From Mesoplasma syrphidae (GTDB lineage: Bacteria; Bacillota_I; Bacilli_A; Mycoplasmatales; Mycoplasmataceae): a DNA stretch of 64,000 bases. The position numbers were made by a program, and so were the translations under genes. Shown here in pieces: positions 3,339 to 28,332 of the stretch. The notes beneath the pieces were generated by a model. That model made no database searches. It was given only the letters and a program-made list of their open reading frames with translations, and was not told the DNA's origin. Within the stretch, counting starts at the first letter, position 1. Every line of letters begins with the position of its first letter. Location of the stretch: contig NZ_CP025257.1 of the NCBI RefSeq assembly GCF_002843565.1, positions 434,001 to 498,000 of the forward strand, read 5' to 3'.

Positions 3339-4736
3339 ATGAGTGATATAATTTTAATTTGTCCACATTGTCAAAAAAACATAACAAAAATGGATTTAGA
3401 AAACAGTGAACATAGTTGAGCTAATGTTGAAAAATTTTTAGATCAAGAAAAAGCTTTGATGTTTAAAAAAATTGAAAGTCAAGTTAAAGAAGCATTAACT
3501 CTTGAATTTGAAAAAGCAAAACAATTAGAAGTTTTGCAAACACGAAAAGAGTTAGAACAAGAAATTGCTATTTATAAAAATGCGATTGAAAAAAATCGTG
3601 CTGATTTTAATAATACTGTTAGTAGTGCTAAACAAGAATATGATTTGAAACTAGCAAATTTATTAAATCAGAAGCAAAGTGAAATTAATGATTATAAATC
3701 AAGACTAATGCAACTTGAAGAACAACAAGAATTATTAATTAAAAATGAAATAGCCCAAAATGATAAAAAATATAATGACACTATTAATACGTTAAAAGTT
3801 AAAATTTTAGAAATGGAAAAATCACAGGAAAACTTGATCTTAAAAAAACGTTCTGAATTTCAAGAAGAAATTAAACCAACAATTGAGGCTTTAAAAGAGC
3901 AGTTAATGAGAAAAGAAATTTCTTTAGCAAATACTCAAGCTGAATTTCAATTAAAATTAGCCAATTTTGAAAATGAAACTCAAAAAAAATATCAACAACA
4001 AATTGAAGAGTTAAAAATTGCTAATGCTCAAAATAAGATTTTACAATCAAAACGTAAAGGTGAGAACTTTGAACATGAAGTTGAAGGAGAATTACGTAAG
4101 GCGTTTGGAATGTTTGATTCAATAACTAAAATCAATAATGTTACAGCTGATAAAAAAGCAGATTATTTACAAGTTATTAAAAATAGTCAAGGTATTGAAA
4201 TAGGTAAAATAGTTTATGAAGTAAAAAATGCGGAATGAAAAAATTCTTGAGAAGGAAAATTAGCAACTGATGTTGCTAATAATAAAACTAAATATGGTAT
4301 TTTAGTAGCTACTAGTTTTAATGAAGAATATAATGGTATTCCATTTATAAGAAGCGAGAAATTCCCAAATATTTGAATAACTGATAGTGAAAGTTTTATT
4401 TTTGTCGGTCAAATCGTTCGTAAACTAATTGAAGTCGAAAATGATTATTTGTCAAAAACTCAATTATTAACTCAAGATACTAATAATGAACTTGTTAAAG
4501 AATACGAAACTAAGAAAGCTAAATTAGAAGAATACTGAACAGTTGAATTTCCTAAAACTTATAAAATTATTGAAACAGAATTGAAAGCGATCGATTCTGT
4601 TAAAAATTCTTTAGAAAACAATTCAGCTAAATTAGCAAAAGCTTCAACAAGATTAAGTATTCAATTTAAAGACAAAATTATTAAAGGATTATCAAAAATT
4701 TTGGGGACATTAGTGGTTGAAGAAAATAATTTTTAA
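3339..4736 (+). CDS. DUF2130 family protein, nuclease-like
   Basis: A 465-residue protein starting at ATG 3339 with a good SD (ACGGAG). It begins with a CPHC pair (Cys8, Cys11; half of a zinc ribbon), continues as a long charged coiled coil (about residues 25-215), and ends in the conserved DUF2130 globular domain (about 225-380) with a further helical tail. In that domain Asp275 and Glu294-x-Lys296 are arranged like the catalytic D...ExK of PD-(D/E)XK nucleases; this reading is my inference. Three TGA codons (3418, 4237 and 4247 region) encode Trp. It lies 20 bases upstream of the RloC-like gene, which has its own SD, so the two are probably cotranscribed. The biological role of DUF2130 proteins is not established. 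Confidence 0.8.
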
Positions 4737-4756: not shown

Positions 4757-6952
4757 ATGATAAAACAAATCGAGATTAATGATATAGCTTCATACAAAGA
4801 ATTAGCATTTTTAGAATGTAAAAAAATTAATTTTATATATGGCGGAAATGGTACAGGAAAAAGCACAATATCAAATTTACTGAATGAATACCCAAATTCA
4901 ACTTTTAATTTTAAAATTAATTGCGATAAAAAAGTGAATGAAAAAATACTAGTTTTTGATAAAAATTTTGTCAAAAGTAATTTTTTGAAATCAAATGAAA
5001 TAAAAGGTATTTTTACATTGGGGGAAGCGAATGTCGAAATTCAAAAAAGGATAGAAGAACTTTCTAAAGAAAAAGAATTTCATAATTCTAAAATGGAATC
5101 TTTTTTATTCTCTGAAGCAGAAATTGAAAATAATATGGAAAAAGAGGAACAAAAGATTATTAAAATAGCATGAGAATATTATAAAAAGTGATCATCAAAT
5201 TTTCAAATTTTTTTTAAGGGAGCAAGAAAATCTAAAAGTGATTATTTTTTTAATTTTTTTAATTCAAACTATGTAAAATATAAAGATATGAATTCAAAAA
5301 TAAGTGATTTTTTGTTATTAAAAAAAGAATATCAGAAGTTTTATATTGATAATTTTATAGTAGAGAAAATTTCAAAAATTCAATTAATTAAAAAAATTGA
5401 TCTTAGCGAATCAGAAAGTGCTGTACTATTTGAAAAAGTTGAGGGAAACAAAAATTGCAAAATTTCAAGAACAATAGATAATTTAAATAATAGTGAGTGA
5501 GTAAAAGAGGGAATAACTTTTTTAGAAAAAACAAAGGAATGTTGTCCTTTTTGTCAACAAAATATCAATAGCGATTTATTAAAAGAAATTGCTAATTATT
5601 TTGATGAAAAATATGACAATAAAATTATTTTTATAAATAATTTATTTAAAAAATATAACGATGATTCTATTAATATATTGAAAGAATTTGAAATTGCCAT
5701 CAAGCTGGAAAAGGAATTTTTTGGAACAACTGAAGTTTTAGCACTAGAAAGTAAAATTAGAAATGGCTTTTTTAATAATTTAAATAAATTTGAAAAAAAA
5801 CTTCGATTTCCATCTAATTCTATAATTTTAACAAATCTTAATAATTTTATTGAAGAATATAATAATAAGATAGTAAGCATAAATGAAAAAATAGAAGAAA
5901 ATAATGCAAAAATTGAAAACCTGGAAGAATATATGGAAGATATAAAAAGTAGTTTTTTTATATTGTTTTTTAAAGAGCAAGATTCTTTTATTAAAGAATG
6001 AGAACAACAAAAAATAAGAGATGAAAAAGGCAAAAAAAATTTGATTGAAAAGAAAGAAAAATTAAATTCTAAAATTAAAGAAATTGAAGAAGAGATTAAA
6101 AGTTTGGAAAATAAAATAACAAGTATTGTACCAGTCATTGAAAAAATAAATAGCAATCTTGATACATTTAATTTTAAAAATTTTTTTATAAAAGAAAACA
6201 GTGAAAAAAGAGGTACTCTAAAAATTGTAAGAATGGATGGAACGGATGTCAATGATACACTAAGCGAAGGTGAATTTAATTTTATTGCATTTTTGTACTA
6301 TTATTTTTTAGTTTATGGTAGTCAAGAAAAAAGAGGAATAAATGTACCTAAAATAATTGTAATTGATGATCCAATATCAAGTTTAGATAATAATATTTTG
6401 TTCGTTGTTAGCATTTTGGTAAACGATATATTGCAAAATTGTATTAAAAATAAAAAAGAAATTAAACAAGTATTTATTTTTACACATAATCTTTATTTTT
6501 ACAAAGAAGTTATTTCAATTGTGAATATTTTAAAATATAAAGATGTTAGCTATTCAGTAATTAAAAAACAATCTGGCATTAGCAAAATTTATACAACAGA
6601 AAATAATTCTATATTTAGTTCTTATGAAATGTTATGAAATGAACTAAGACAAGAAAATATTTCTTCAATGACTGCAATGAATATTATGAGAAGAATAATT
6701 GAACACTACTTTAAAATCATAGGCAATTATAATATACGAAATGAGATTATAGATAAGTTTGAAGGAGAAGAAAAGCTGGCACTTAATTCTTTTTTTAAGT
6801 TCATGAATGATGGTTCTCATTCTATCACAGATGATTTTGAATGAGTGTCAGATGATTTGACACTTGAAAATAGTTTAAAGTTATTTGAAAAAGTTTTTGA
6901 ATTAACAAAACAAAAGTCACACTACGATATGATGACTCGAAATTGAAAATAG
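4757..6952 (+). CDS. AAA_13 ATPase, RloC/PrrC-type anticodon nuclease candidate
   Basis: A 731-residue SMC/Rad50-like protein. Walker A (GGNGTGKS, residues 29-36), a coiled-coil centre with a zinc-hook-like CPFC (Cys263, Cys266), a second coiled coil, an ABC-signature-like LSEGE (502-506), Walker B with the D-loop (Asp537-Asp538, DPISSLD) and an FTHN switch follow in order. This is the layout of RloC, a tRNA anticodon nuclease that cleaves the wobble position during phage infection or DNA damage. The C-terminal part carries Arg645-x3-Glu649 and, 39 residues on, His688 in a GSHS context, matching the Arg-x3-Glu...His triad reported for the PrrC/RloC nuclease. About six TGA codons are Trp. The start has an SD (AAAGGAG). 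The ATPase family is certain; the nuclease assignment is likely but untested. Confidence 0.82.
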
Positions 6953-9840: not shown

Positions 9841-9957
9841 AATTTAGTAAACTTAATCACTTGTTTTTAAACTTATTTTGAGACTATATAGTTTACAATA
9901 AATTTATAATATTAAATTTAAATGACTAACTATAATAATAGTCAAGAAAAGGAATCT

Positions 9958-10821
9958 ATGAAACAATATTTAAATTTACTTCAGGATGTTTTAGAACATG
10001 GTGAAGTTCGTCAAGATCGAACTGGAACTGGAACACTATCAAAATTTGGAATGCAAGCTCGTTATGATCTACGTCAGGGCTTTCCAGTAGTAACTACTAA
10101 AAAAGTATTTTTTAAAGCGATTGTTCATGAAATTTTGTGATTTATATCAGGAGATACTAACATTAAATATCTTGTTGATAATGGTGTTAATATTTGAAAT
10201 GAGTGACCGTATGCAAACTATCAAAAATCTGATTCATTTAAAGGAGAAACATTAGAAGAATTTATTGAAAAAATCAAAAGTGATGCTACTTTTGCCCTTC
10301 GTTATGGAGATCTTGGACCTGTTTATGGAAAACAATGACGAAACTTTAATGGAATTGATCAATTTAACAAATTACTTTCACAATTAAAAAATAATCCCAA
10401 TTCACGTCGCCATATAGTTTCTGCTTGAAATCCAGTTGAAGTCGAAGATATGTTATTGCCACCATGTCATTCATTATTTCAATTATATGTCAGCGAAGAA
10501 GGTTTTTTAGATCTACAACTTTATCAACGCAGTGGTGATTTATTTTTAGGAATTCCTTTTAATATTGCTAGTTATGCGTTATTACTAGAATTAATTGCTA
10601 AAGAATGTGATTTAAAGCCTCGATATTTTATTCATACAATTGGAGATGCTCATATTTATTTAAATCACGTTGAGCAAGTCAAACTACAACTTTCTCGTGA
10701 ACCAAAACCTTTGAGTAAAATAAATATTAAAAATAAATCTATTTATGAAATTAAATTTGAAGATATTGTATTAGAAAACTATCAATCATGACCGGGAATA
10801 AAAGGAAAAGTCGCTGTTTAG
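9958..10821 (+). CDS. thyA: thymidylate synthase
   Basis: A 287-residue enzyme that converts dUMP to dTMP with methylene-tetrahydrofolate. Clear family blocks are present: the N-terminal RTGTGT loop, the catalytic Pro-Cys-His ([13 protein letters not shown]), the [18 protein letters not shown] block and the C-terminal PGIKGKVAV. Trp positions conserved in ThyA are encoded by TGA, good evidence for code 4. Start ATG 9958 (MKQYL) was preferred over ATG 9922 because it has an AAAAGGA SD and matches the usual ThyA N terminus. A small unknown gene follows in place of the dihydrofolate reductase gene often found there. Confidence 0.95.
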
Positions 10822-10884
10822 AAAGCCTAAATAAGTAGTTTTGATATGTTAGAATAAAGATATCAAGATTAAGGCGGTAACTTT

Positions 10885-11142
10885 ATGGCTAAAGATATTA
10901 ACAATACAGTAGATTTTTTAGATTTAAGAAACTTGGATGGTAAAAAAGTTGATAGACTTTTAAGCGAGGGCAAAACATTAGTATTTGCATACAGAAAAGG
11001 CTGAATGGTTAAGGGTTGAATTAAAAAAAGTTACAACCGTTGAATTAAAGCAAATATCGAAGTTAAACAAGAGTTAGATAATTGTGGAATTTGTTACTGC
11101 AAGAAACCTGCAAATGTTTTGGTTTATGTTTGAAGGGAATAA
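10885..11142 (+). CDS. unknown small protein, 85 aa
   Basis: A short frame with an AAGGCGG SD 10 bases before ATG 10885. The product is basic, soluble-looking and Trp-rich (five TGA Trp codons), with a Cys cluster CGICYC near residue 70 that could bind metal. It follows thyA by 63 bases without a terminator, so it is probably on the thyA transcript. No family recognised. The good SD and the consistent TGA-Trp use argue for a real gene. Confidence 0.5.
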
Positions 11143-11265
11143 AAAGGTGGTTACAAATATGTATACAAGCTGCAGTTATGTTTCTGTCTTAAATTTTTAA
11201 GAACAAACAAGCATGAATATTATTTATTAATATAAATGAAACGTAAAGCAAGAGTAAAGGAAAAA

Positions 11266-12519
11266 ATGAAATACTGATTTGAAAAAAATTTAATTATAAA
11301 TGGAAAAATGACTATGAATATTATAAATTTTTATTTTGTTGATGCTGCTTTAGTTAAATATGAAATCTATTTTTATGATAAAAAAAATAAAAATATTAGT
11401 AAAGATGATATTTTTTTCTCTATAGATGAAACAATTTTAAATTTAAGTCTTTTTTTAAGTTTTTTTTATATACCTCATAATAATTTTTGTTTTTCTGAAT
11501 ATTATGATTTAAGTAGTGAAGATTCTTTTTTGCTAAGTTTAAAAAATTATAAAAAAGACTTATTAATTATTAATAAACAGCAAAAAAAAGCGGGAAATTT
11601 TTCCGAATTAGAAATGGCTTTTCTTTGTGCGTTATATATTGAAAATGAAAGAACTCAAAATTTTCCTAATAAGGAATTATTAATAGATTTTTTATGTAAA
11701 ATAGCAAAATATGTAGGAACAAAACGAAAACTTAGATCTTATATAAATAAACTTTCTAATATTTTGGCATATGATATTTTAAGAAAGAATATTGTTAGTT
11801 CTGGAATGAAATCGGATAAAAAAGTGCAGATAACAAAAAAACAGTATTTAGAATTTCTAAATAAATATAATATAAATGATTTAACAAATAAACCTGTTTG
11901 AGTTGAAAAAGATATTTATTATTCGCGAGAAGGAATTTATTATTTATATATACTTTTTGATAATGATTTAAATAAAATCACAAATTATATAAATAATGAA
12001 TTAATGTATAAAGAAGAGTATAATAATGATTTAACGAAGCAAGCGGGAAATGAGTTATATTTTTCAGAAAAAATAAGTTGTCATTCTGCTCTTTCAAAAC
12101 CTGAAATTTTTAATTTTGACAAAATGGTTTTTTCACGTGTTTTTTTTACAAGAATAAGGAATAAAACAATTGTTAATGAATATTTGAAAAACAATAAAAT
12201 ATGTGAGTTTTGTTTAAAAACTGAAACTTTTATTAAAGAAAAAGATCAAATGTATTTTGAGGTTCATCATTTTATACCTTGTAATATAAAGATTCAAAAT
12301 CAATATAAGAATAATTTAGATAACTTTGCTAATTTGCTTTCCTTATGTCCAGAATGTCACCGAAAGATTCATTTTTCTATTAAAGAAGTTAGAGAAGAAA
12401 TGATTAAAAAACTTTATTATGAAAAGTTTAATAAAAATCAAACTTTTAAAAAATATTTTTTTGAAGAAAATATAGAAAAGATTATTAGAAATTATTCTGA
12501 AACTTTTAATTTAGAATAA
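11266..12519 (+). CDS. HNH endonuclease-like protein, likely restriction enzyme partner of the C5 methyltransferase
   Basis: A 417-residue protein. Residues 1-300 form a domain I do not recognise; residues about 305-380 are a zinc-type HNH nuclease with CEFC (Cys313, Cys316), the catalytic His pair VHH (His334-His335), LDNFANLLSLC and CPECHRKIH, which supplies the second Cys pair and the final His. HNH enzymes cut DNA with a single metal ion. It stands directly before a cytosine methyltransferase (50-base gap), the classic type II R-M pairing. Start 11266 was chosen for its AAAGGA SD. The C-terminal 120 residues are clearly related to those of the gene at 14599, while the N-terminal parts differ. 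Nuclease family sure; restriction role inferred from context. Confidence 0.8.
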
Positions 12520-12539
12520 TATGTTAAAAAATAAAAATT

Positions 12540-12548
12540 TGATAAAAT
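12540..12548 (+). promoter_or_regulatory. extended -10 element upstream of the methyltransferase
   Basis: TGATAAAAT matches an extended -10 (TGn TAnAAT). Its end lies six bases before ATG 12555, so transcripts from it would start at or near that ATG and be leaderless. This would let the methyltransferase be expressed apart from the nuclease. Confidence 0.4.
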
Positions 12549-12569
12549 AATAAAATGAAAGAGAAAAAC

Positions 12570-13877
12570 ATGGATAAAATAATTAAAAAGAAATTAAAGT
12601 TTATTGATTTATTTTCGGGAATTGGTGGTTTTCACTTAGCAGCTGAAAATTTTTCATTTAATTCGAATGAAATAGAATTAAAATGTATTTTAGCATCCGA
12701 AATTGATCCTTTTGCTAAAATAGTTTATTCTAAAAATTATAATTGAGATATTGCTGAAATTAAAAATATTAGGGAAATAAATGAAAATGACATCGAAAAT
12801 TTTAATATCCTTTTTGGTGGTTTTCCATGCCAAGCATTTTCAAATGCTGGTAAAAAACAAGGATTTAAAGATCAAGTTAAGGGAACTCTTTTTTTTGATA
12901 TTGTGAGAATAATCGATGCAAAAAAACCTGATTTTTTTTTATTAGAAAATGTGAAACATTTAGTTAAACATGATTTTGGAAAAACTTTTGAAACTATAAA
13001 TAAGACCATAAATGAAATGGGATATTTAACTACTTCTAGACCTTTAATATTGAACTCAGTAAATTTTGGTTCATTACAAAAAAGAGAACGTGTTTATATT
13101 GTAGGTGTTAAAAAAGGTAATAATGCGCAAGAAAAAATTGATCAAATTGCAAATGATTTAAAAAATATAAATTTAAAGAGGGATTCAATTGAAGACTTTT
13201 TTCTAAAATCTGGAAAGCCAAATGAAAATTTATATCTGGATAATAAAAGAGACATAAAAATTTTAGTTGCGCTAAAAGCTTGAGAAGAATTTATACAAAA
13301 CGTTAAGTTTCCTGCTAATAAAACTTTGCCTGTTATTTGATTAGATTCCTTTAATGTTTCTATTAAAGACAGAGTAAACTATACTAAAAATTTTTCGGAA
13401 TGAAGAAGAAAATATTACACTGATATGTGAGATATATATGATAATAATAAAACTTTTATTGATATTTGAATGAGAAAACACAAAACTAAAAATTGAGCAA
13501 AACGAGAAAGAAAGTTTGAGTGACAAGCTGGTAAAGATGCTCCAAGAACGTTAACAGAGACTTTTATACAACTTAGACAATCAGGAATAAGATGTAGAAA
13601 AAAAGAATATTTTCCAACCCTCGTAGCAATGGTGCAAATGCCTTTATTTTTTGATAAAAATATTGACAAGTGAAGATATCTTTCATCAAAAGAAGCAGCG
13701 TTACTTCAGGATTTTAATTTTTCTAATCCCAATAAAAAATTTTTAAAATTTGATGATATTATAAATAATGAAAATAAAAATGTTGAGCATATATCAAACA
13801 AGCAATTTGGAAATGCGGTCAATGTGAAAGTAATTGAAAAAATAATTGAAAGAATATTAGAAGATTTTAAACTATAG
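12570..13877 (+). CDS. DNA (cytosine-5)-methyltransferase
   Basis: A 435-residue C5 methyltransferase that transfers methyl groups from S-adenosylmethionine to cytosine in a specific sequence. Motif I (DLFSGIGGF) is near the start, motif IV GFPCQAFS has the catalytic Cys87, motif VI is ENVKHL, motif VIII is QKRERVYIVG near residue 170, and motif X is QFGNAVNVKV near the end. The region between VIII and X (about 190-390) is the target recognition domain and is Trp-rich (many TGA). ATG 12570 has an AAAGAG SD; ATG 12555 in the same frame is the alternative and may be used on a leaderless transcript. All core motifs are present, so it should be active. It pairs with the HNH gene upstream. Confidence 0.92.
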
Positions 13878-13911
13878 TAAATTATGAATATAGAAAAGGC
13901 GAATTATATCA

Positions 13912-14532
13912 ATGAAACCTGTACAAATTATACTAATTGCTGGAGGTTCTGCTTCAGGAAAAACAACTGTTGCAAAAAGAATTGCGAATGTAATATTGAA
14001 AGACAAATCTGTGACTTATTTATCAATGGATAATTATTATAAAAATTTTCCAGAAATGACTTTGCAAGAAAGAAAAAAAATGAATTTTGATCATCCAAAT
14101 ATTATGGATATAGACCTAATGGTGAAGCAACTAGTCGAACTTAAAAAACGTCAGGCAATAGAAGTTCCAAAGTACGATTTCACTACATCTTTGAGAATGA
14201 AAGAGACATTTCGTGTAGAACCAGCAGATGTTATTATTATTGATGGAATATTCACTTTACATATTGATAAAATTAGAAAATTTGGAGATATTAAATTATT
14301 TATAAAAACTCCGGATGATGTTCGATTTATTAGAAGATTAACAAGAGATATAGAAGAGCGTGGCTTTACAACAGACCAAGTTATTAATCAGTATCTTGAA
14401 ACGGTTAAACCAATGCATGATTTTTTTGTGGGACCAAGTATTGATTTCGCTGACGTTATTATTCCTTATCAGGAGGGAAACGAAGTTGCAATTGATTTAG
14501 TAGCTACAAAAGTTGCAAGTTGAGTTGATTAA
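13912..14532 (+). CDS. udk: uridine kinase
   Basis: A 206-residue P-loop kinase that phosphorylates uridine and cytidine to UMP and CMP. GGSASGKTTVA (residues about 11-21) is Walker A, LSMDNYY the substrate-binding segment, FDHPNIMD the typical Udk block, and the RRLTRDIEERG lid follows. The length is normal for Udk. It has an AAAAGGCG SD. It is a housekeeping pyrimidine-salvage gene lying between the two halves of a restriction island: methyltransferase 35 bases upstream, second HNH gene 66 bases downstream beyond a terminator. Confidence 0.92.
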
Positions 14533-14566
14533 AAAAGGTTAGTTTTTAAAACAGACCTTTTTTTTG
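14531..14566 (+). terminator. rho-independent terminator after udk
   Basis: AAAAAAGGT pairs with ACCTTTTTTT across a loop and continues in T residues, starting at the udk stop codon. Confidence 0.75.
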
Positions 14567-14598
14567 TTGTAAAATATTTATATATAAAGGAACCTATT

Positions 14599-15756
14599 AT
14601 GATAAAAGAAAAAGTCTACAAAGTTATTTGAAATAATGAAGAAATTGAAGTAAATAATGCAAAATTTAAAATAATGCAACTAGTGTCTGATAATTTTGTT
14701 GCATCTATTAAAACAAATATAAAAGAAAAAATTGATGAAGATTTTGTTGTGACTGACAATTACAATAATCTATTAGGATTTAATAAGTATAAAAATAATT
14801 CCTTACTTTTTATTTTTCTTCCCTTAAAAAATAGCGGAACAAAAGAAAATACGAAAAAGCGATTTCAAATTTCCATCAAAAATAAGGAAATATCACAAGA
14901 TTATTCAAAAATATTTATTATTGGGTATTTAAAAATTTGTGATAAAGAAGAAAAGTTTAAATATTTATTCTTTATTAGTGAAGATATAAAAAATTTTTAT
15001 ACTAGTTATATTAATAAAAAAACATTCAAAGAAACATTGCAACAAAGTTACAGTTCTTACTGAATTAATGACTGAGAAAAAATAAAGGAAGTTGCGTTTA
15101 GTAAAGAAAAGTTACTAATAAGTTACGGACTTAACATATCAAATAGAAAAAATAAAAATGCAAATTTTTTTGTAAGAAAATATTTTATATCTAAGGATTT
15201 TGATATTTTATTTGAAACTTTTTTTGAAAAAGAATTTAGAAATGCAACTGAGACAGCACTTGTTAATTTGATAGATGACGATGATTTTTTAAATGAATTA
15301 AAAAGTAATAAAGATGATTTTAATTATGAATTTGAACAACCGGTTAAGTTTAATTTTAATGATGCACAGAATTTTGTTACAATATGTAAATTAAAAAGAA
15401 ATAAGAGTTTAGCAAACTTTTATTTGATAAAAAATCAAAAATGTGAGCTGTGCAATATTAAAAAGACTTTTAAAAAAGATAATACGCTTATTGAATATTT
15501 TGAAGTTCATCATTTTATTCCCTATAATAAGAAGGTTCAAAAGTATTATGAAAATACTCTTGATCATTATTACAATTTGGTTTCTTTGTGTCCTAAATGT
15601 CACAGAGAAATTCATATGTCAAATGAGGAAAATAGAAAAAAACTTATTAGTAGAATTTATAGGGTAAAAGTAAATAGTACATTTCAAAAATATTATCCTG
15701 AAACAAACTTGGATATGATTTTGAAAAATTATAAAGAGACTTTAAAAGATAATTAA
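14599..15756 (+). CDS. second HNH endonuclease-like protein, paralogue of the gene at 11266
   Basis: A 385-residue protein with SD AAAGGA. Residues 1-265 are of unknown fold and share no visible similarity with the N-terminal part of the 11266 protein. Residues about 270-345 are an HNH nuclease with CELC (Cys282, Cys285), VHHFIPYN (His304-His305), SLCPKCHREIH, closely matching the 11266 protein through to the C terminus. Two TGA Trp codons lie at 15061 and 15073. It is the first gene of a three-gene run (HNH, GHKL ATPase, Z1 helicase) after a terminator, with gaps of 32 and 1 bases. It is probably the nuclease subunit of that complex; the unique N-terminal part may set target or partner specificity (inference). 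Confidence 0.8.
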
Positions 15757-15788
15757 ACTAACTAAGAAATAATAGAAATGGAATTACA

Positions 15789-17411
15789 ATGGAAAAAAAA
15801 GAAATAGATATAAGTCCTAAAACTTCGATTTATAAAGCATTTAAAAGAATGTCTTATCAACTTGAGACCGCTATTGCCGAATTTATAGATAACTCTACCA
15901 GTTCTTATTTTGATCATAAAGATGAGTTAGAAAATATTTATAAACTTAAAAATCAAACATACAAACTTAAAATATATGTTCTTTATGGTAATATGGGAAA
16001 ACCTGAAGATTCTTTTTTACAAATAAAAGACAATGCATATGGAATGAATTTTGATGATTTTCAAAGAGCAATAAGATTAAATGATATTCCAAAAGATAGA
16101 AGCGGAAGAAATGAATTTGGAATGGGTTTAAAAACGGCAGGAGTTTGATTTGCTAATGAACTAAGAATAACGTCTTCTTCTTTAACAAGCAATGAGCAAT
16201 ATAAAATAGTTTTGAATGTTGATGATTTAGAACGAGAAGAAGCTAATACTTTAAGGGTTGAAACAAAAGAGGTTTCTGAATTAAATCATGGAACAACTAT
16301 TTTCCTTAAAAATATGTCAAACGTTCCCAAAAGCAAAATTCAAAAACAAAATCTGATTGATTTGTTATCAAGCATATATAGAAACGATTTGGAGACCGGC
16401 AGTATTGAAATAATTCTTGCGGAGTATAAAAAAAGCGATGGATGCTGATACGATTTTAATGGAAACAAATACGGGAAAACTTCAGATGCGTATATAAACA
16501 TTCCTTCTATTCAATGGGAAAATAAAAAAATATACGTTATCAAGGAGGGAGAGAAAAATAACCCGCAAAATGCTGATTATGAAGTAAAGACTACGTTTGA
16601 TGATTATATAGATTTTGAAGGAACAAAATATAAAGTTTTTGGATGAATTGGAGCATTGGAAATATCATCAAGAAAATGAAACGGTTTTGCCCTTTTGCGT
16701 AGAGGCAGAGTAATAACTGGTGGAAAACCTTATAGTGGATATAAAGTTAAGGAAATTAGTGGGCAGTCGGGTTCTTTTGAGGATATTAGAATTATAGGGG
16801 AAATTAATATGGATAATTTTCCGGTAAACCAAGCTAAAGACGGTTTTTCATGAAATAATGGTCTTGAGGATGCTTTTATAGATTTTTTGATTAACAAAAC
16901 GGATGCCAGAAAAATTAAAAAAATAGCTCATGAAATAAGAAAAAAAGAACCAGTGAATATTGAAATTTTTAAAGATAAAAAATATAAAAAGGACGTAAAC
17001 AAAGAAATCAAAGAAAGTTTCAAAAATTCAATAAATACAGAAACAGAAATAACTATTAATGACATTGAACTAGATTCTTATCAAAAAAGTAATGATATTT
17101 TAGAGCACATTGAAATTGTTTTTGAAGATTATTTAACTGGAGAAGTGACAAATATTAATTATTTAATATCAAATAAAAAAGAACCCACAAATTGAATTGA
17201 TATTTTGATAAATAATGATGATAAGTATTCTTTTATTTTGTATATAGATCATGAATTTATTAAACCATTTTCTTCTGATCAACATTTTTTAAAATTTATT
17301 AAGCAGTTTGTGTCTGCATATGCTACATCTATGATTTTTGCAATAAAAAATGATTTAGGAATAGAATCAATTAATTTGCAAATGAATAAGTTTTTGAAGG
17401 GATATAAATAG
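15789..17411 (+). CDS. GHKL ATPase, MORC/MutL-like, restriction-associated
   Basis: A 540-residue protein with a Bergerat ATP-binding fold: N-box Glu31...Asn35 (AEFIDNS), G1 motif Asp81-NAYG, G2 motif FGMGLKT (110-116), and a later Lys/Gln-containing segment NFPVNQAKDGF typical of the S5-like half of such ATPases. The C-terminal 150 residues are Lys-rich and helical. Comparative genomics has placed ATPases of this type next to Z1 helicases, DNA methyltransferases and nucleases in restriction systems, and proposed them as the source of eukaryotic MORC proteins; that is the arrangement here. Both TGA and TGG encode Trp. It ends one base before the Z1 gene starts, so the two are surely cotranscribed. 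Confidence 0.85.
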
Positions 17412-17412
17412 T

Positions 17413-19569
17413 ATGAGCAACAATAATATATTTGAAACTAATTTTATAAATGTTTACAGTAAAGAACCGTTTTTATCTAAAAGTAAAGCTGAAATGATGA
17501 TAAAAAATAGTAAAGATACTTTAAAAGAAATGATGGGAGAAGATCAAAAACCAAATAATAAAACGGGACTTTTAGTTGGAAAAGTTCAATCTGGTAAAAC
17601 TGCAAATTTTTTAGCTTTAATATCAACCTCATTTGATAATGGTTATGACATTGCACTTGTTTTTGCTGGAAAAGAAAATAAATTGTATAATCAAAATTGT
17701 GATCGAATTTCTGAATTATTTAGCAAGCAAGATATTCTAAAAAGAGATCTGAAACCACTTGTAAAAGTTATTAAAAATGATAAAGAAAATGATGACGTTC
17801 TTAAATGAATAAATAATGGAACTAAAATTGTTATTATCGCTATGAAAGAAAATGTTAGTTTCGATCGAATACAAACATTATTGAAAAAGAACGAAAATTT
17901 GGTAAATAAAAAGTTTTTAATAATTGATGATGAAGGAGACCAAGGAACTTTAAATGCCAATGCTTTTTATGAAAATAAAAATGCAACTAAATGAAATAGT
18001 GAAATAAGTCATATAAGAGAATTAATTAGAAATTATTCTTTTATAACTGTGACAGCGACTCCTTATGCAAATCTTTTTATTGATGAAAAAGATATATTTT
18101 TACCTAAGTTTATTAAAAGAATAATACCAGATGAAAATTACACTGGATTAGATGCTTTTCACAGTGAAGAAAGTAATAATATTATAATTATTCCTGAGAA
18201 AGATATGATTTTGGGAAAAGAACATGATGTAAGGTTTAATCAAAATCTATCTATAAGAAAAGCAGTTTCAACATTTCTAATTTCTGCAGCTCTTAAGTGT
18301 ATTGATTTAAAAATAAATGCATCAGAAATGTTGATTCATAATTCAGAAAAAAAAATAGTTCACGAAAATATTAAATCTAACATTCAAAATATTATTCAAT
18401 TGCAAATGGATTATTCTAAAAAAAGATCTGACTCAATTGAATTTAAAAAAGGATATATGAACTTTATAAATTTGGGTTTTGAAAAAGTACTAAATAGAAA
18501 AGCAAATATTAGCAATAAACTAGATAAAGAACTTATTAAACTTGTTACAGAATCTTTACCAGGGATAGAAATATCAATTATTAATCAAAACTATAAAAAA
18601 AATTCTCAAATACATGATGACCCTTTGACCATATATATAGGTGCTGCAATGATAGAAAGAGGAGTGACATTTAAAAATTTGACAACTGTTTACATGTCTA
18701 GGGAAGCCAAACAGGCAAATGTTGATACGCTGCTTCAAAGAGGAAGATGATTTGGTTATAGAAGACAAACAATTGAATATATTAAAATATTCTTATCAGA
18801 CAAGTTAAAAAGTCGTTTTGAAATTTTGAGGCAACTGGAAGAAGAAATGTGAGATGAACTCGGAAGACTTGAAAATGGTGAATATGGTTCAATTGAAGAA
18901 TGAATTAAAAATATACATTTCAGATTAGGCGATAGAAAACTGCAAATGAATTTAACAAGAAAAGGAGTTTCTCCAAAAATGTCTAAAGGATACTTGAAAT
19001 CATGATTTTCACAAACTAAGGTTAAATTAAGGAGCAACGAGTTCGAAAAAAATATGCTTCAAAAACTAAAAAAAGAAGCCATACCGTTAAAGTTTGGAAA
19101 TATTAAGCATGGTTTGAAGGAGTTTAATAATATAAGCGAATTTGAGTTATATATGGGAGAAAGCTTTGAATCTTTTTTAGACAAAGTTAATATAGATAAA
19201 AGTCTATGAAATGCTTATGCCAAAAATGCAATTAATACAAATGTAAATTTAATACTGATGCGTCCAGATTTGGATGAAAAAGCGTACAGAACAGTGTTTG
19301 AAGAAAACCAAGAAATAAATTTATTTGCTGCTGGAAGTGCGGAATATAGTTTCTCGACTATGGATATTGAAAGCAAAAATTTTTATTTTGGTGATAGAAA
19401 GATAGATCTTTATCAAATAAATGCAAATAAAATAACTATACTAGTATATTCATTAGAAATTAAATTTGTTAATAAAAACTCTAATTTAATTGCCTCTTGA
19501 AAAAACGAAGTTTGTTACGCAGTTCACTTTCCAAAAACAAATCATATATATGCTTATAAAAAAACATAA
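17413..19569 (+). CDS. Z1-type superfamily II helicase of a restriction system
   Basis: A 718-residue ATPase. Walker A GKVQSGKT is at residues 56-63, Walker B IDDEGDQ at Asp172-Asp173, motif III TATPYAN near 214, the GAAMIERGVTFKNL segment near 415 and motif VI LLQRGRWFGYRR near 440 (the Trp is TGA). This GKxQSGKT / DDEGD / QRGRWFG set is the signature of Z1-domain proteins, which pair with GHKL ATPases in DNA-restriction loci. Roughly 270 further residues form the Z1 C-terminal region. It presumably moves along DNA to bring the nuclease to its target (inference from family). ATG follows the upstream stop by one base, consistent with translational coupling. Confidence 0.87.
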
Positions 19570-19570
19570 T

Positions 19571-19607
19571 AATGTGGAAAAGTGGAAAACTTTTTCACAT
19601 TTTATTT
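19571..19607 (+). terminator. rho-independent terminator closing the restriction operon
   Basis: AATGTGGAAAAGT pairs with ACTTTTTCACATT (one G-T pair) across a five-base loop, followed by a T-rich tract, directly after the Z1 stop codon. Confidence 0.82.
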
Positions 19608-19677
19608 ATTTACATTTATAATTTATAAATAGACAAAGTTTAAGACTTTGATATTTTGTTATGAAAAGGAGACTAAT

Positions 19678-21633
19678 ATGGCAAATACTAAAAATAGCTA
19701 TGATGAAAGTGCCATTCAGGTTCTTGAAGGTTTAGAAGCAGTTCGAAAACGTCCAGGAATGTACATTGGTTCAACAGATGGACGTGGTTTACATCACTTG
19801 GTTTGAGAAATTGTTGATAACTCAATTGATGAGGCATTAGCTGGATATGCTACAGAAATTAATGTTGTACTTGAAAAGAACGGATCAGTAACTGTTTCAG
19901 ATAATGGCCGTGGAGTTCCAATTGGAATGCATGCGACTGGTAAACCTACTCCTGAGGTGATTTTTTCTGTGCTTCATGCTGGAGGAAAATTTGGTGGAAG
20001 TGGATATAAAACATCTGGAGGACTTCACGGAGTTGGGTCCTCAGTTGTTAATGCTTTATCTAAAAAATTCAAAGTTACTATCCATCGTGATAAACAAATA
20101 AATGAAATTGAATTTAAAGATGGAGGAAAGTTAGCAAAACCACTTGTGCAAACTGGAAATACTTATAAAACTGGAACAACAGTTAATTTTTTACCCGATG
20201 ATTCAATTTTTACTACAACTAAATTTAGTTTTACAACAATTGCTGAACGTTTGAAAGAATCAGCTCTTTTAAATTCTGGATTGCAAATTACTTTAAAAGA
20301 TGAAACAACTGATAAGCACGTTGAATATAACTATGAAAATGGTTTGCAAGAGTTTGTTCGTGAATTAGGAGAAGACTTTAAAAAAATTACTGATCCTGTG
20401 ACTGTTAAAGGAGATGTTCGTCGTATTGAAGCTGAAATTTGTTTACAGTATACTGAAGATTACAATGAAACCGTTTTAGGATTCGCAAATAATGTTAAAA
20501 CAAGTGATGGTGGAACTCACATTACTGGATTTAAAGCAGGTTTGGCACGAGCAATTAACGATTATGCTAAAAATACTAAAATTTTAAAAGAAAAAGAAGC
20601 TCGTTTAGATTCAAATGATCTTCGTGAAGGATTAATTGCTATTGTAACTGTTAAAATTCCTGAAGACTTAATTGAATATGAAGGTCAAACTAAAGGAAAA
20701 TTAGGAACTCCCGATGCTAAAGCAGCAGTTGAGCAAATTACTTACAACTTTTTTAACTTTTGATTAACTGAAAATAAAGTTCCTGCAACTAAAATTGTAG
20801 AAAAAGCACTGTTAGCTCGTCGTGCTCGTGAAGAAGCTCGAAAAGCTCGTCAAGCAATTCGTGATACTAAAGGAAAAAAACAAGGGCGTTCAATGCTTGG
20901 TAAATTAACTCCTGCTCAAGGCCGTAAAAAGGCTATTAACGAGTTATATCTTGTCGAAGGAGATTCAGCTGGGGGAAGCGCTAAATCTGGAAGAGATCGT
21001 ACCTTTCAAGCGATTCTACCATTACGTGGAAAAGTTATTAACTCTGAGAAAGCCAAAATTGCTGATCTAATGAAAAATGAAGAAATTAATACGATCATTA
21101 CAGCTATTGGAGCTGGTATTGGATCTGATTTTGAAATTGCTGATATTAACTACGGAAAAGTTATCATCATGACGGATGCTGATACTGATGGAGCTCATAT
21201 TCAAACATTATTATTAACATTCTTCTTTAGATATATGAAAGATTTAATTGTTAATAAACATATTTTTATTGCGTTACCACCATTATATAAATTAACTTTT
21301 TCAGATCATTCATTTATATACTTATGAGACGAAGACGAATTAGCAGAATATTCACGAAATTCAAAAAAGAAATTTGAAATTCAACGTTATAAAGGATTAG
21401 GAGAAATGAATGCTGACCAATTGTGAGAAACAACAATGGATCCTGACAAACGAAAATTAATTTTAGTAACAATTGATGATGCGTTAGCAGCTGAAAAAGC
21501 TTTTAGAACTTTAATGGGTGATGATGCTGAAAAACGTAAAGAGTGAATTCAAGATAACGTTAAGTTTACTTTAGAAGATAAAGCAGCGGATATTATCATT
21601 GAAGCTGAACCAACTGTGAAAATAGAAGAATAG
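19678..21633 (+). CDS. parE: DNA topoisomerase IV subunit B
   Basis: A 651-residue GHKL-type ATPase subunit. The N-terminal [11 protein letters not shown], the N-box [11 protein letters not shown], the DNGRGVP motif, the [14 protein letters not shown] lid, and in the Toprim half [14 protein letters not shown] and [10 protein letters not shown] are all present; the C terminus has [21 protein letters not shown]-type sequence. It works with ParC to decatenate and relax DNA. ParE rather than GyrB is favoured by the parC gene directly downstream (11-base gap) and the length. Trp codons are TGA. SD AAAAGGAG precedes ATG 19678. Confidence 0.93.
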
Positions 21634-21644
21634 GAGAGTACCAA

Positions 21645-24389
21645 ATGGCTAAAAAAACAATTGACAACAGTAATGTTGAAAATGAAAAAGGAATAGTCGT
21701 TTACCCATTAGAAGATCTAATGGGTGATCGTTTTGGACGTTATGCCAAATATATTATTCAAGAACGTGCTCTTCCTGATGTTCGTGATGGTTTAAAACCT
21801 GTTCAACGTCGAATCTTATACGCAATGGGAGATTTAAACTTAACCTCTGATAAAGCATATAAAAAATCTGCTCGTATTGTTGGAGAAGTTATTGGTAAGT
21901 ATCACCCTCATGGTGATACTTCAATTTATGATGCAATGGTAAGAATGAGTCAAACTTGAAAATTGGGAATGCCTTTAATTGATATGCAAGGAAACAATGG
22001 ATCAATTGATGGAGATAGCGCTGCTGCGATGCGTTATACTGAAACTCGTTTGGCAAAAATTTCAAATTTAATGTTAGAAGATTTGGAAAAGAATACCGTA
22101 ATGTTTGCTCCAAACTTTGATGATTCAGAAAAAGAACCAACAGTTCTGCCAAGTTACTTTCCAAATATCTTAACAAATGGAGCTACTGGAATTGCTGCAG
22201 GATATGCTACAAATATGCCTCCCCATAACTTAGGAGAAATAATTGATGCAACAATTCGTTTAATTAAAACTCCTAACACTCGTCTTGATTCAATTTTAGA
22301 AATTGTTAAAGGACCTGATTTTCCAACTGGAGGAGTTGTTCAAGGTCGTGAAGGAGTTCGCGATGCTTTTGCAACTGGTAAAGGAAAAGTAATTATTAAT
22401 TCAAAATGACACGAAGAAAATGGAAATATCATTATTGATGAAATTCCCTATGAAGTTGTCAAACAAGATCTTGTTCGTAAAATCGGAGAAGTAATTGATA
22501 ATAATCCTGGTTTAGGAATTCAAGAGATTCGTGATGAAACTGATAGAACTGGATTACGAATTGCTATTGACTTAAGCGATAAAGCAAACGTTGAAACTGT
22601 TCGTAAGTTTTTATTTAAAAATACTCCATTATCAATTTCATTTAATTACAACAATGTTGTAATTGTTGACAAACAACCTCAACAATTAGGAATTATTGAA
22701 ATTATCAAAGCATATATTGTTCACTATAAAGAAGTGTTTACTCGTCGTACTCAATTTGATGTTAATAAAGCTAAAACTCGTTTAGAATTGGTTTTAGGAT
22801 TAATTAAAGCAATGTCAATTTTAGATCAAATTATTGTTGCTATTAGAGCTTCAACTAACCGTAGTGATGCGATTAGTAATTTAGTTGATCAATTTGATTT
22901 TTCTCAACCTCAAGCAACTGCGATTGTTGATATGCGTTTACACCGTTTAACTTCAACAGATATTGTTAAACTTCATGAAGAAAAAGCTTCACTAGAAACT
23001 TTAATTAAACATTTAGATGAAATTTTAAATAGCGAAGAAGTTCTAGATACTGAAATTATTTCGCGTTTAAAAGAAGTTAAGAAAAACTTTGCCATTCCTC
23101 GTCGTAGTGAAATGACTGATATTGTAGAAAGCCTTGAAGTTGAATTTAAAGATACTTTAGTTGAAAAAGAATTTACTTTATGAGTTTCTAAAGATGGATA
23201 TTTGAAAGCTGTTGATAATGCGATTGTTGCTAAAAATGATTTAGCAACTTTTGGTCGTAAGCCAAATGACTTATGAATAACATCAACAAAAGTATCTAAC
23301 TTAGAACATTTATTATTAATTTCTAATGTTGGAACATACTATTCAATTCCGTTATATAAATTACCAATGAGTAAATGAAAAGATATGGGTGTGCATATTA
23401 ATACTGTTGCTACAATGGATGGAAATGAAGAAATTGTTTCTGCGTTTGTTATTAAAAACTTTGAACAAGCAACCCAACAAATTTTATTGACAACAAAATT
23501 GGGAATGATCAAAAGAACTCCAATTGTTGATTTGGAAACAAAAATCTTTACTAGAGCATTTAAATGTATGAAATTAAGTGATAATGATCAAATTGTTTCA
23601 GCTTCACTTGTAACATCAAAAACTCGTACATGTGCAATTATAACTCGTAATGGATTTGGGGTTCGTTATCACATTGAAGATATCCCAGTTCAAGGAACTA
23701 ACTCCAAAGGGGTTAAAGCATCAAATCTTAAAGATGATGTGATTGTTTCAGGAAAACCTTTAGAAAATGATGATGCAATTATGTTTATTACTGATAAAGA
23801 TAGTATGAAAAAAGTTGCTCAAGCTGAAGTTCCAATTTATATTCGTCCAAAACGTGGAGCAAGATTATTCCCTGAACGTAAACGTGGCGTTGAGTATATT
23901 TCATATGGATTTAGTGTGAATGCAACTGATACAATCAAAATTCTTGATCAAAATGATGAGTACAACCAAATTAGTGTGGCAAAAGCAAAATTCTTGGATT
24001 TAGCTTCAACAACAGCTGATACTGGAATTGATCAAATCGTTGCTGCCAATTTAGAAAAAGCCTATCAAGTTACAAATGGTGATCTACCACCTGAATCTAC
24101 AAATAATTCAAATGAAGGTGAAGAATATGTTTCTAAAGCTGAAATTAGAGCTAAACATGATGCAAATAAAGGTAAAGTAACTGATAAGGTAGTTGTAACT
24201 AAAACTATTAAAGAACAAGGCAAAGAAAAAGCTGCTGAAATTAAAGGAACTGATTTATCAGATTTGTTGGGTGATATTTCATCAATTTTAGGAAATGTAA
24301 CAACTCCGAAAACAACTAAAACTAAAAAACCAAAAACGGAAGACATAGATAAAATACAGTTAAATTTTGATGATTTATTTGATGAATAA
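21645..24389 (+). CDS. parC: DNA topoisomerase IV subunit A
   Basis: A 914-residue DNA-cleaving subunit. [35 protein letters not shown] is split here into its ParC-type pieces: [12 protein letters not shown], the [15 protein letters not shown] block, the [14 protein letters not shown] quinolone region and [11 protein letters not shown] with the catalytic Tyr. The C-terminal beta-pinwheel region runs from about residue 500, and the last 130 residues are a Lys/Thr/Asp-rich, low-complexity tail. LEDLMGDRF and [20 protein letters not shown] distinguish ParC from GyrA. SD AGGAGAG overlaps the parE stop, showing an operon. Confidence 0.93.
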
Positions 24390-24906: not shown

Positions 24907-27900
24907 ATGGAAAGTAAAACATTAATAAAAGAATTCAAAACTAGATTATTATCAACAAATAGACGTGGAAGCATTTATTATAATAGTTTTATAAAAAGAT
25001 CAAGTACGATTAATTTATTTAAATTTCAAAAATTCAAAATTCTTGTTGATGAAAAAACTCTTAAAAACTCTATAGATGAAAATATAATAAAAATAGATTT
25101 TAGACTTGTAACATCAGAACCAAATTCTAAAGAGTTTGCTAAAATAAATAGTTATGTAAAAGAATTAAAAACAATTATTTCAAAAAATAAATTATTAATT
25201 TCTGAACGAAATCAAGATTGCTTTTTTATTGGTAAATATTTTATTGAAGGTATGCTTTCAAAAAATGATAAAGATTATTTTAGAGCTCCTTTATTTTTAC
25301 AAAAAATAATAGTTGAAAAAGAAAATCTTAAAGAGTTTTCTTTAAAAATAGAAAATGAAGTAATCTTTAACAATGCTTTAATGAATTTATTGGCTCAAAA
25401 AAACTCAATTAAATGAAATTTTTATGAATATAACTCTGAGGATTTTAAAAGCAAGGAACTTTCTGAAAAAAATATTGCAAAATTACTTAATCAAGCAGGG
25501 ATCAAGTTAATTAATGAATACAATGAAATAAGCAAAATATTTAATAATGAATATGAGGATATTAGTTCTTCTTCTAAAAATGAAGAGGTATCAAAATTTT
25601 TAAATTCTAAAAAGGTAGGCTTGTATGCTTATCCTATTCCAATTACAGCAATTGGCTTATATGACTTAGCAGCAAGTAATATTTTAGCGGCTTATGAAAT
25701 AATTGAAAATGACATTGATTTTTTTGAAAAACTTGCAGCAGAAGAATATGATTCATTGATTAAAGCTAAAGAAGTAACCGAAAAAGATATTAAGACTATT
25801 TCTGTTTTGGATTATTCTCAAAAATCTGCGGTACTAAATTCCTTAAAAGAGTCTAGTTTTATTTTTGGACCTCCTGGAACTGGGAAATCGCAAACAATAG
25901 TTAACTTAATCGCAAATATTTTATATAAAGATAACAAGGCTCTTTTCATTACTGAAAAGAAAGTAGCATCTACAGTAGTGTACGATAAGCTAAAAAAATT
26001 AAACGAATTTACTCTTATGCTTCACAATAACGAAAAAGCAAAAGATGTACATCAAAAAGTAGCAAATTTATACTACAAAATTCAAAGACTTATACAAAAT
26101 GATGAATATTTAGAAGTTGACTTTGACGATTATGATGAACAAATTATCGATATTTTTAATAATGTTAAAAAATATAAAAATCTAATGAATACTGATGAAG
26201 GAAAAAAATATATTAGGTTTTTGAGAGATATTTCTCAAGATACAAACAATAACTCTGTTAAGTACGAAAATAATTTGTTTTTTGAAATAGAAACTGATTT
26301 AAATGTTATTACTAAAAGTAGTTTTTGAAAAGATTTAAAAAACATAGAAAATTTATTCAATGTATCTTATTCTTATAAAAATTTTTGAAATTCTATTATA
26401 ACTCAAAATACTAGTATGCCAAAATTTATTTTCAATAAAAAAGGTTATAATAAAATTAGTACAAAAGTATCATTATTTAAAATTAAAAAATATAAACTAT
26501 TTTTAAATTCAAGCGAATTTAAAGAATATGAACAAAAGATAAAAGCCTTTTCATATAAACATGAAATTGAAAATATACACAAATTAATGAAGTTAATTGA
26601 AATTCTTTTAGAAAGCAACTTAAAATTAAATGACTTAACAATTAAACAAATTTTTGTTAATTATTTCGAGAAAAAAAATAGCGATGATTTGAATTTTTTT
26701 GATTCTAATTGAAATCATAGGCTGCAAACACTATTTAAAAATAAGGCTAAATCTGATTTGAATGGAATTTATAATCAACATATTAATAATATTGTTAAGA
26801 CTATTAAAACCAAAGAATATAATGATATTGAAACAAATACTAACAGAAGTATGGCGGCCTTATTCAATAAGATGGGAAGAAATATTGAAAGTGTCAAAAA
26901 TCATATTCGGCTTACAACATGATTTAAAAATTACTATCCAATAATTGAGACGATGTTTCCAATTATTATTGCTTCTCCAGAATCAATTTCTAATCATAGA
27001 TTATTGCCAATTGATAAAGAAGAGTTTGATTATTGTATATTTGATGAAGCTTCTCAAATATTCACTGAAAAATGCTTACCTGCAATGTATAGAGCAAAAA
27101 AATATATAATTTCGGGAGATGACAAACAATTAGCACCTTCTAGTTTTTTTCAATCCCGAACAAATATAGAAAATGAAACAAGTGAAGATATTACAAATTT
27201 TGAAGAGGATATTGTAAACTTTTCAAATCAAACAAGTCTAATTGATTTTGCTAAAGGTAAATATCGTAAATTTATGTTGAGTTTTCATTATCGAAGTAGA
27301 TTTGAAGAATTGATTCAATTTTCAAATCATAAATATTATGAAGGAAATTTAAATGTTGTTAGCGATCCAACATTTGAAAAAAAACCTATTGAGGTAATTA
27401 ACGTAAGCGGAGAAAGAATAAATCGTTTAAATGCTGTAGAAGCTGATGAAGTAATAAAACTAGTAAAAAACATTGTCAAAAACAACAGTGAAAAAAGTAT
27501 TGGTATAATTACTTTTAATTCCGAACAACAAAAACTCATTGAAGATAAAATAGAAATATTAGCTAGTCAAAATGTAGATATCTATAATAGTTATAAGTTG
27601 AAAGAAAATGGTGAAAATTTATTTATTAAAAATATTGAAAACGTTCAAGGGGATGAAAGGGATATAATAGTTTTTTCTGTTGGTTTTGCAAGAGACGAAA
27701 ATGGAAGTTTCCGAAATCACTTTGGGCCTATCAATACTGAAGGTGGAGAACGTAGATTAAATGTCGCAATTACGCGTGCAAAAGAAAAAATGTATGTTAT
27801 TAAATCAATTAATTCTGATTTAATTAATGCAAATCCAGACTCAACTGGAGCAGTTCATTTTAAACAATTTTTGGAGTATTGTGAAAAATTGCAAAAACCG

Positions 27901-28332
27901 GAAGGATTTTATTCTGATGAGGTTCAAATATTGTTAAAAAATCAAACTAGTGTTGCTAAAAGTGATACTGATCAACTTGAATTTGATTCTCATTTTGAAG
28001 AAGAAGTTTATGATGCAGTTAACAAAATATTACCACCAGAATTATCTCTTAAAACACAGATAGAATGTTCAGGATTTAAAATTGACCAGGCTATTTACGA
28101 TGAAAGATTTAACAAATATATATTGGCCATAGAATGTGATGGATGGGCTTTTCATTCTTCTGAATATCAAAGACAAAGAGATATAGAACGTCAAATATTT
28201 TTGGAAAATAGAGGATGAAAATTTAAACGAATATTATCTACACAGTGATGAAACAAAAATTCATATATTAAAGAAAGTTTTTTAGATTCTATTAAGGAAG
28301 AAATTATGGAATATTTGAAAAGTACTAATTAA
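24907..28332 (+). CDS. SF1 helicase fused to a restriction-endonuclease-like domain
   Basis: A 1141-residue protein. After about 300 N-terminal residues of unclear fold comes an AAA_11/AAA_12 (Upf1/Dna2-like) SF1 helicase: Walker A GPPGTGKS (321-328), Walker B DEAS (Asp713), motif III SGDDKQLAPS, LSFHYRS motif IV, the VQGDERD motif V and NVAITRAKEKM motif VI. The C-terminal 110 residues, with IECDGWAFHSSEYQRQRDIER and a final RILSTQWW, match the Vsr/DUF559-like REase_MTES_1575 domain. Such fusions are common in bacterial defence loci. TGA and TGG both encode Trp. It is preceded by a long AT-rich gap with no strong SD (AAAAGGG at 24894-24900 is the best) and is followed 20 bases later by a membrane protein gene. 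Confidence 0.88.

Follow-up and report, generated by a model that had tools for sequence, protein, structure and literature searches.

We analysed a window of 64,000 nucleotides from Mesoplasma syrphidae, a relative of Spiroplasma (contig NZ_CP025257.1, positions 434,001 to 498,000 of the forward strand), part of an AT-rich genome of 908 kb (G000), and concentrated on a putative restriction locus at window positions 11266-19569. Under genetic code table 11 every gene of the locus is broken, and under table 4 (TGA read as tryptophan) all are intact, so TGA must encode tryptophan here. The gene order is thyA, an 85-amino-acid (aa) open reading frame (ORF), HNH1, M, udk, HNH2, GHKL, Z1, parE and parC, and the individual features are as follows:

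9922-10821: thyA, upstream of HNH1
11266-12519, + strand: HNH1, the second HNH nuclease, 417 aa; PF01844, 8.9e-06 (Pfam)
12555-13877, + strand: M, cytosine-C5 DNA methyltransferase, 440 aa; PF00145 (DNA_methylase), 1.7e-64; TIGR00675, 7e-68
13912-14532, + strand: udk, uridine kinase, housekeeping; PF00485, 1.6e-41
~14530-14567, + strand: hairpin and T-run after udk, AAAAAAGGT...ACCTTTTTTTT, probable terminator, read by eye
14599-15756, + strand: HNH2, the R protein, 385 aa; residues 1-245 divergent MTaX1-like, 258-384 HNH
15789-17411, + strand: MORC-type GHKL ATPase, 540 aa; PF13589 (HATPase_c_3), 8.7e-14; GHKL, S5-like module and C-terminal extension
17413-19569, + strand: Z1 superfamily 2 (SF2) helicase/ATPase, 718 aa; PF10593, 2.4e-32; ResIII, 1.1e-05
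19571-19601, + strand: terminator-like hairpin after Z1, from a consensus scan, at chance frequency

An initial annotation of this DNA had described a C5 methyltransferase, two HNH nucleases, a MORC/MutL-like GHKL ATPase and a Z1 helicase within 8.3 kb, a content confirmed by Pfam and by motifs intact under table 4, with both nucleases matching PF01844 (HNH) above the cut-off. The one-base gap it reported between the GHKL and Z1 genes is also present (base 17412, TAG-T-ATG). Its gene list was incomplete, as udk had been overlooked between M and HNH2; this is a housekeeping gene lying between the two halves of the locus and is not part of the system. Candidate starts of HNH1 are the in-frame ATGs at 11236, 11266 and 11308. 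The post-udk hairpin was missed by the consensus terminator scan and was seen by eye alone; on account of this hairpin and its T-run, HNH1–M–udk and HNH2–GHKL–Z1 probably form two transcription units.

Conserved motifs and domain structure

M retains the PCQ, ENV and QxRxR motifs intact, from which it is predicted to be active as a methylase. It is the sole C5-methyltransferase match in its own genome, so any 5-methylcytosine found there would be attributable to M. The candidate target GGNCC/GGWCC, a guess based on the target region of the methylase, showed no depletion.

All four GHKL motifs of the ATPase are intact (EFIDNS, DNAYGM, GRNEFGMGLKT and GTTI) and are followed at residue 299 by the S5 motif GFALLRRGRVI, which is kept in 68 of 71 homologues; this is the combination that defines prokaryotic MORC proteins (GHKL motifs I-IV, then S5 with GhXhhpXXRhl). 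Z1 has an intact Walker A motif, DDEGD and TATP, and its DTLLQRGRWFG at residue 438 corresponds to the C-terminal DThhQXuRhFG that marks the helicases of type-3 MORC operons, a relaxed form of which (D...Q..R.FG) is found in 72 of 73 homologues. Sequence search returned no solved relatives of either the MORC or the Z1 protein. The structural model of MORC (26 sequences, predicted local distance difference test (pLDDT) score 81.5) resembles the SMCHD1 ATPase module, Hsp90 and Morc3, with a template modelling score against Morc3 (5ix2) of 0.45 by query length and 0.56 by target length (root-mean-square deviation 5.6). GHKL proteins are ATP-dependent dimer clamps, and the model fits such a role.

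In both HNH proteins the EVHH, N and CxxCH..H motifs are intact. The N-domain of HNH2 carries an invariant SG...KR...S-x-W signature and is similar to the N-domain of the Mycoplasma NOV_C R proteins (hhalign probability 93%, E 3e-7). Its profile also matches the R protein of genome G082 (2e-7), which is itself an MTaX1 protein above the cut-off (2.5e-17) and matches a Type II restriction enzyme model at 3.8e-38 (PADLOC REase_II PDLC03409). The Erysipelotrichaceae homologue of HNH2 scores 20.9 bits (5.5e-4) with the Pfam MTaX1 model PF20296, under the 25-bit cut-off. It has been proposed that MTaX1 discriminates modified DNA (PMC10853773). The AlphaFold model of HNH2 (six sequences, pLDDT 56) is too weak for fold assignment, and only its HNH/EcoKMcrA match agrees with the sequence search; an EcoRV-like fold of the N-domain was considered and set aside, given matches of E 0.17 or worse on this model. 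HNH_2-type proteins encoded beside M in relatives seemed to share N-domain motifs, which profile comparison did not support (probability 1%).

HNH1 and HNH2 are alike in the C-terminal HNH domain only (50% over 117 aa). The HNH domain of HNH1 groups loosely with the HNH1 copies of G126, G020 and G192 and not with HNH2 (modest support), and its N-terminal part has no detectable relatives, matching neither the HNH2 N-domain nor the N-domains of other HNH1 proteins. A recent origin of HNH1 by copying of HNH2 was rejected, since the two domains fall into different groups predating the window (moderate support).

Distribution of the gene set and exchange of the nuclease

GHKL matches were found in 18 of 198 genomes of the order, nine of them at E < 1e-75. 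At the level of the family (60 genomes), full-length HNH2, close Z1 (E < 1e-60) and close GHKL (E < 1e-80) occurred in exactly the same seven genomes, all of which also have M. The chance of two such 7-genome sets coinciding is ~2.6e-9 with phylogeny ignored, and confinement to the same seven genomes argues that the gene set is not a product of chance. Six of the seven genomes keep the genes in a single cluster, and udk intervenes in the window only; at the same chromosomal site G005 has udk–HNH_2 type–M–HNH2–GHKL–Z1–parE as a contiguous series. The initial annotation had named independent occurrence of the genes as an outcome that would count against it: in the 60 genomes HNH2, MORC and Z1 stay strictly together and are never found without M, whereas two genomes have M but none of the other three.

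The MORC and Z1 trees agree, and the HNH-type loci of the Spiroplasma group form one clade. With the two genes adjacent in almost every relative and their trees matching, the description of ATPase and helicase as a coupled unit holds. No GHKL relatives were found in phage records, plasmid records gave just two partial GHKL matches, and no HNH2 relatives were confirmed in viral contigs.

When GTDB species genomes were scanned with the GHKL alignment, 75 loci were recovered, spread over Bacillota, Bacteroidota, Chloroflexota, Spirochaetes, archaea and other groups, and these loci were annotated with profiles built in this analysis. M, Z1 and a DUF4420-type nuclease were present together in 65 of them, in bacteria and archaea alike and typically in the order M–MORC–Z1–DUF4420; PF14390 was confirmed in four of the five DUF4420-type nucleases tested. 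Five loci without DUF4420 have an R protein directly upstream of MORC, of the HNH type in two (Spiroplasma sp. TIUS-1 and an Erysipelotrichaceae bacterium) and of the NOV_C type in three (Mycoplasma loci). The remaining five are cut by a contig end or have no recognised nuclease (L055). A DUF4420-type gene is likewise absent at the locus from the window and its HNH2-type relatives, and every HNH2-type locus has an MTaX1-like-HNH protein beside the MORC gene. Because the loci lacking DUF4420 carry an R protein upstream of MORC, the nuclease subunit is exchanged, with HNH2 replacing the usual DUF4420 nuclease. That the nuclease is swapped while MORC and Z1 remain together points to MORC–Z1 as the shared engine.

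The HNH form with two nucleases had been called unusual. The HNH form is indeed uncommon among such loci, but the presence of two nucleases is not peculiar to the window, as seven of eight HNH2-type loci have a second HNH gene, either HNH1-like or HNH_2-type, and only G076 is without one. Such recurrence suggests that the second HNH protein has a function, and the G076 exception together with the swapping suggests that this function is accessory.

Two further loci were noted. In G189 (L214:7582-9939) M and an HNH_2-type nuclease stand alone, suggesting that the two genes travel together as a simple restriction-modification unit. The G019 system (L029:4279-10809) is wrecked, with methylase, GHKL, Z1 and DUF4420 in pieces and a transposase-like ORF of 316 aa inserted.

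Known systems and competing explanations

As the initial annotation stated, GHKL-Z1-methyltransferase loci are known from comparative genomics: MORC-SFII(Z1)-nuclease-Dcm operons were predicted as a third type by Iyer, Abhiman and Aravind in 2008 (PMC2292703). The window shares with these operons the C5 methylase, a MORC protein with GhXhhpXXRhl, an SFII helicase with DThhQXuRhFG and a dedicated nuclease, but that nuclease has a restriction-endonuclease fold in the third type (DUF4420/PF14390 in the loci read), whereas the window has an MTaX1-like-HNH protein beside MORC and a second HNH protein. Since the usual nuclease is replaced by an HNH R protein, the locus is filed as a variant of type 3 and not as a plain member. 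Novelty lies in the HNH-type R subunit and the recurrent second HNH protein, the kind of system itself having already been predicted.

The nearest systems with biochemistry are CglI and NgoAVII, which consist of a C5 methyltransferase, an R protein and a Z1 ATPase and cleave only unmethylated sites in a reaction needing ATP hydrolysis: binding of R to its site sets off ATP hydrolysis by Z1, after which unmethylated DNA is cleaved (PMC4267653). In common with the window they have a C5 methylase, a separate R subunit with nuclease and DNA-binding domains and an SF2/Z1 ATPase, as three stand-alone proteins. Their R protein, however, is built from PLD and B3 and they lack MORC, whereas the R protein of the window combines HNH with an MTaX1-like domain, has no Pfam match to PLD or B3, and is accompanied by MORC. 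MTaX1 Type II enzymes offer another comparison. The G082 locus (L215:7552-9937) consists of two genes, one for a restriction enzyme with an MTaX1 domain and one for a C5 methylase from the same family as the window M; the N-terminal domain and the partner methylase are thus related to those of the window, but the C-terminal nuclease part differs and the locus has neither MORC nor Z1.

Starting from what is observed (gene content, intact motifs, co-occurrence, nuclease replacement and the shared N-domain), we consider it likely that the locus specifies one ATP-dependent restriction-modification system of the MORC-Z1 type, in which HNH2 would be the restriction subunit, MORC and Z1 would be required and M would be protective. 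Several results weigh against this. The M tree is only partly congruent with the MORC and Z1 trees, and M has apparently been exchanged in part among loci: in G165 M adjoins an HNH_2-type gene and groups with M of G036, G018 and G189, likewise accompanied by an HNH_2-type gene, so that some loci seem to have swapped M jointly with its HNH_2 partner. Close M genes without MORC–Z1 exist in G189 and G082, and in the window udk and the probable terminator divide the locus. Word avoidance, examined in 464 kb of G000 and in 120-140 kb of nine relatives, some with the system and some lacking it, revealed no palindrome depleted specifically with the system. The Pfam MTaX1 model gives no direct match on the window HNH2, and since the protein falls short of this model its MTaX1-like label is reached via intermediates. 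Finally, no biochemical study of, or data on, any MORC–Z1 restriction system was found in the literature searched.

Some of the same results would be expected if two independent systems had come to lie in one hotspot, a Type II pair HNH1-M on the thyA side of udk and HNH2-MORC-Z1 on the parE side, the latter having lost or never needed a methylase of its own. The division by udk and terminator, the loci in which M has only an HNH_2-type gene (G189) or an MTaX1 enzyme (G082) as its partner, the partly incongruent M tree and the unrelated defence genes flanking udk in relatives all speak for it, and it is kept, as a clearly less probable explanation, because M with its HNH_2 partner appears to have been exchanged in some loci. 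On the other side, the other six HNH2-type family genomes keep M in the same cluster, contiguously at the same site in G005, and M is adjacent in nearly all 75 homologous loci. Moreover, the window M groups with those of G005, G126 and G020 (99/98), all of which have the same system, and the genome offers no other C5-methyltransferase match. It is very unlikely that HNH1 and HNH2 are McrA-like, modification-dependent Type IV nucleases cutting methylated foreign DNA: EcoKMcrA (6ghc) and mREase_IV are their closest relatives among solved structures and in PADLOC, but these matches span the HNH domain only, the N-domain of HNH2 is MTaX1-like and shared with a Type II restriction enzyme, and a locus that combined Type IV cutting with an active C5 methylase would attack its own host's DNA unless the two recognised different motifs. 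Least probable of all is an anti-phage system similar to MZA (MutL-like, Z1, DUF and AIPR) in place of restriction-modification. A GHKL ATPase adjoining a Z1-domain protein is common to both, and NCBIfam matches link Z1 to MzaC (2.5e-30) and GHKL to MzaB (5e-07); the scores, however, are far under the curated cut-offs (105 versus 1500 bits and 28 versus 850 bits, respectively), no AIPR protein or other Mza partner is present in the locus, and a C5 methylase and HNH nucleases stand in place of the AIPR/DUF partners.

If a single MORC-Z1 restriction-modification system is assumed, M would methylate a cytosine within its recognition sequence in host chromosomal DNA, the MTaX1-like N-domain of HNH2 would read both the site and its methylation state, and the HNH domain would cut. 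Z1 may act as a DNA-dependent ATPase/translocase, with cleavage waiting on its firing as it does in CglI/NgoAVII, while MORC, a GHKL ATPase expected to dimerise on ATP binding, is most likely a clamp on DNA that links site recognition by HNH2 with Z1; HNH1 would be a second, non-essential nuclease working with the same methylase. This sequence of steps, MORC acting as a clamp and the part assigned to HNH1 are our inferences; most likely the MORC/Z1 pair, burning ATP, licenses the nuclease to cut unmarked DNA. More tentatively, and with considerable doubt, the MORC clamp and Z1 motor might form a general licensing unit that takes interchangeable sensor-nucleases (DUF4420, MTaX1-like with HNH, or MTaX1-like with NOV_C), the two HNH proteins of the HNH branch acting together on unmethylated DNA. 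MORC ATPases of animals and plants function in genome silencing and are linked to DNA methylation; were the proposal true, the licensing unit would be a bacterial counterpart of MORC proteins responding to DNA methylation state. Bacterial MORC relatives were predicted in 2008 to be members of restriction systems (PMC2292703). As the window locus is compact, with five genes and only one methylase, and its host genome is small, the MORC–Z1 question can be tested directly.

Defence genes around udk

The flanks of udk hold different defence genes in close relatives, so the system of the window sits in an integration or defence-gene hotspot. When the thyA-udk and udk-parE intervals were compared (window 9922-24389; L207-L213 and L026), seven of eight relatives had differing restriction or defence genes beside udk. 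G097, of the same genus, has at this site on the parE side (L207:4660-9121) another GHKL–Z1 pair, accompanied by a D12-type adenine methyltransferase and an unknown protein of 252 aa, and on the other side of udk methylase and restriction genes; given the adenine methyltransferase of this pair, the type of methylase is exchangeable too. The thyA-udk interval of G162 (L208:9201-15482) contains a C5 methylase, a 326-aa unknown protein, a DUF4420-type nuclease, an 822-aa protein with no PADLOC match and a 586-aa Z1-like helicase, with no recognised MORC, and is possibly another related system; an Old/AbiLi-like gene lies on the other side of udk. The genes beside udk are a methylase and an AbiU-like gene in G013, an AIPR gene in G129, a methylase and GmrSD in G085, and a methylase and a PLD-helicase protein in G047, and G159 has no defence genes there.

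Elsewhere in the window, a 1141-aa protein encoded downstream of parC (24907-28332) combines AAA_11/AAA_12 helicase domains with a C-terminal MTES_1575 nuclease (Hhe/PDC-S37/ProA-like) and is probably another defence gene. At 4757-6952, adjoining a DUF2130 protein (3339-4736), a 731-aa AAA_13 protein matches PADLOC PDC-S06 at 3e-198 and, weakly, PrrC.

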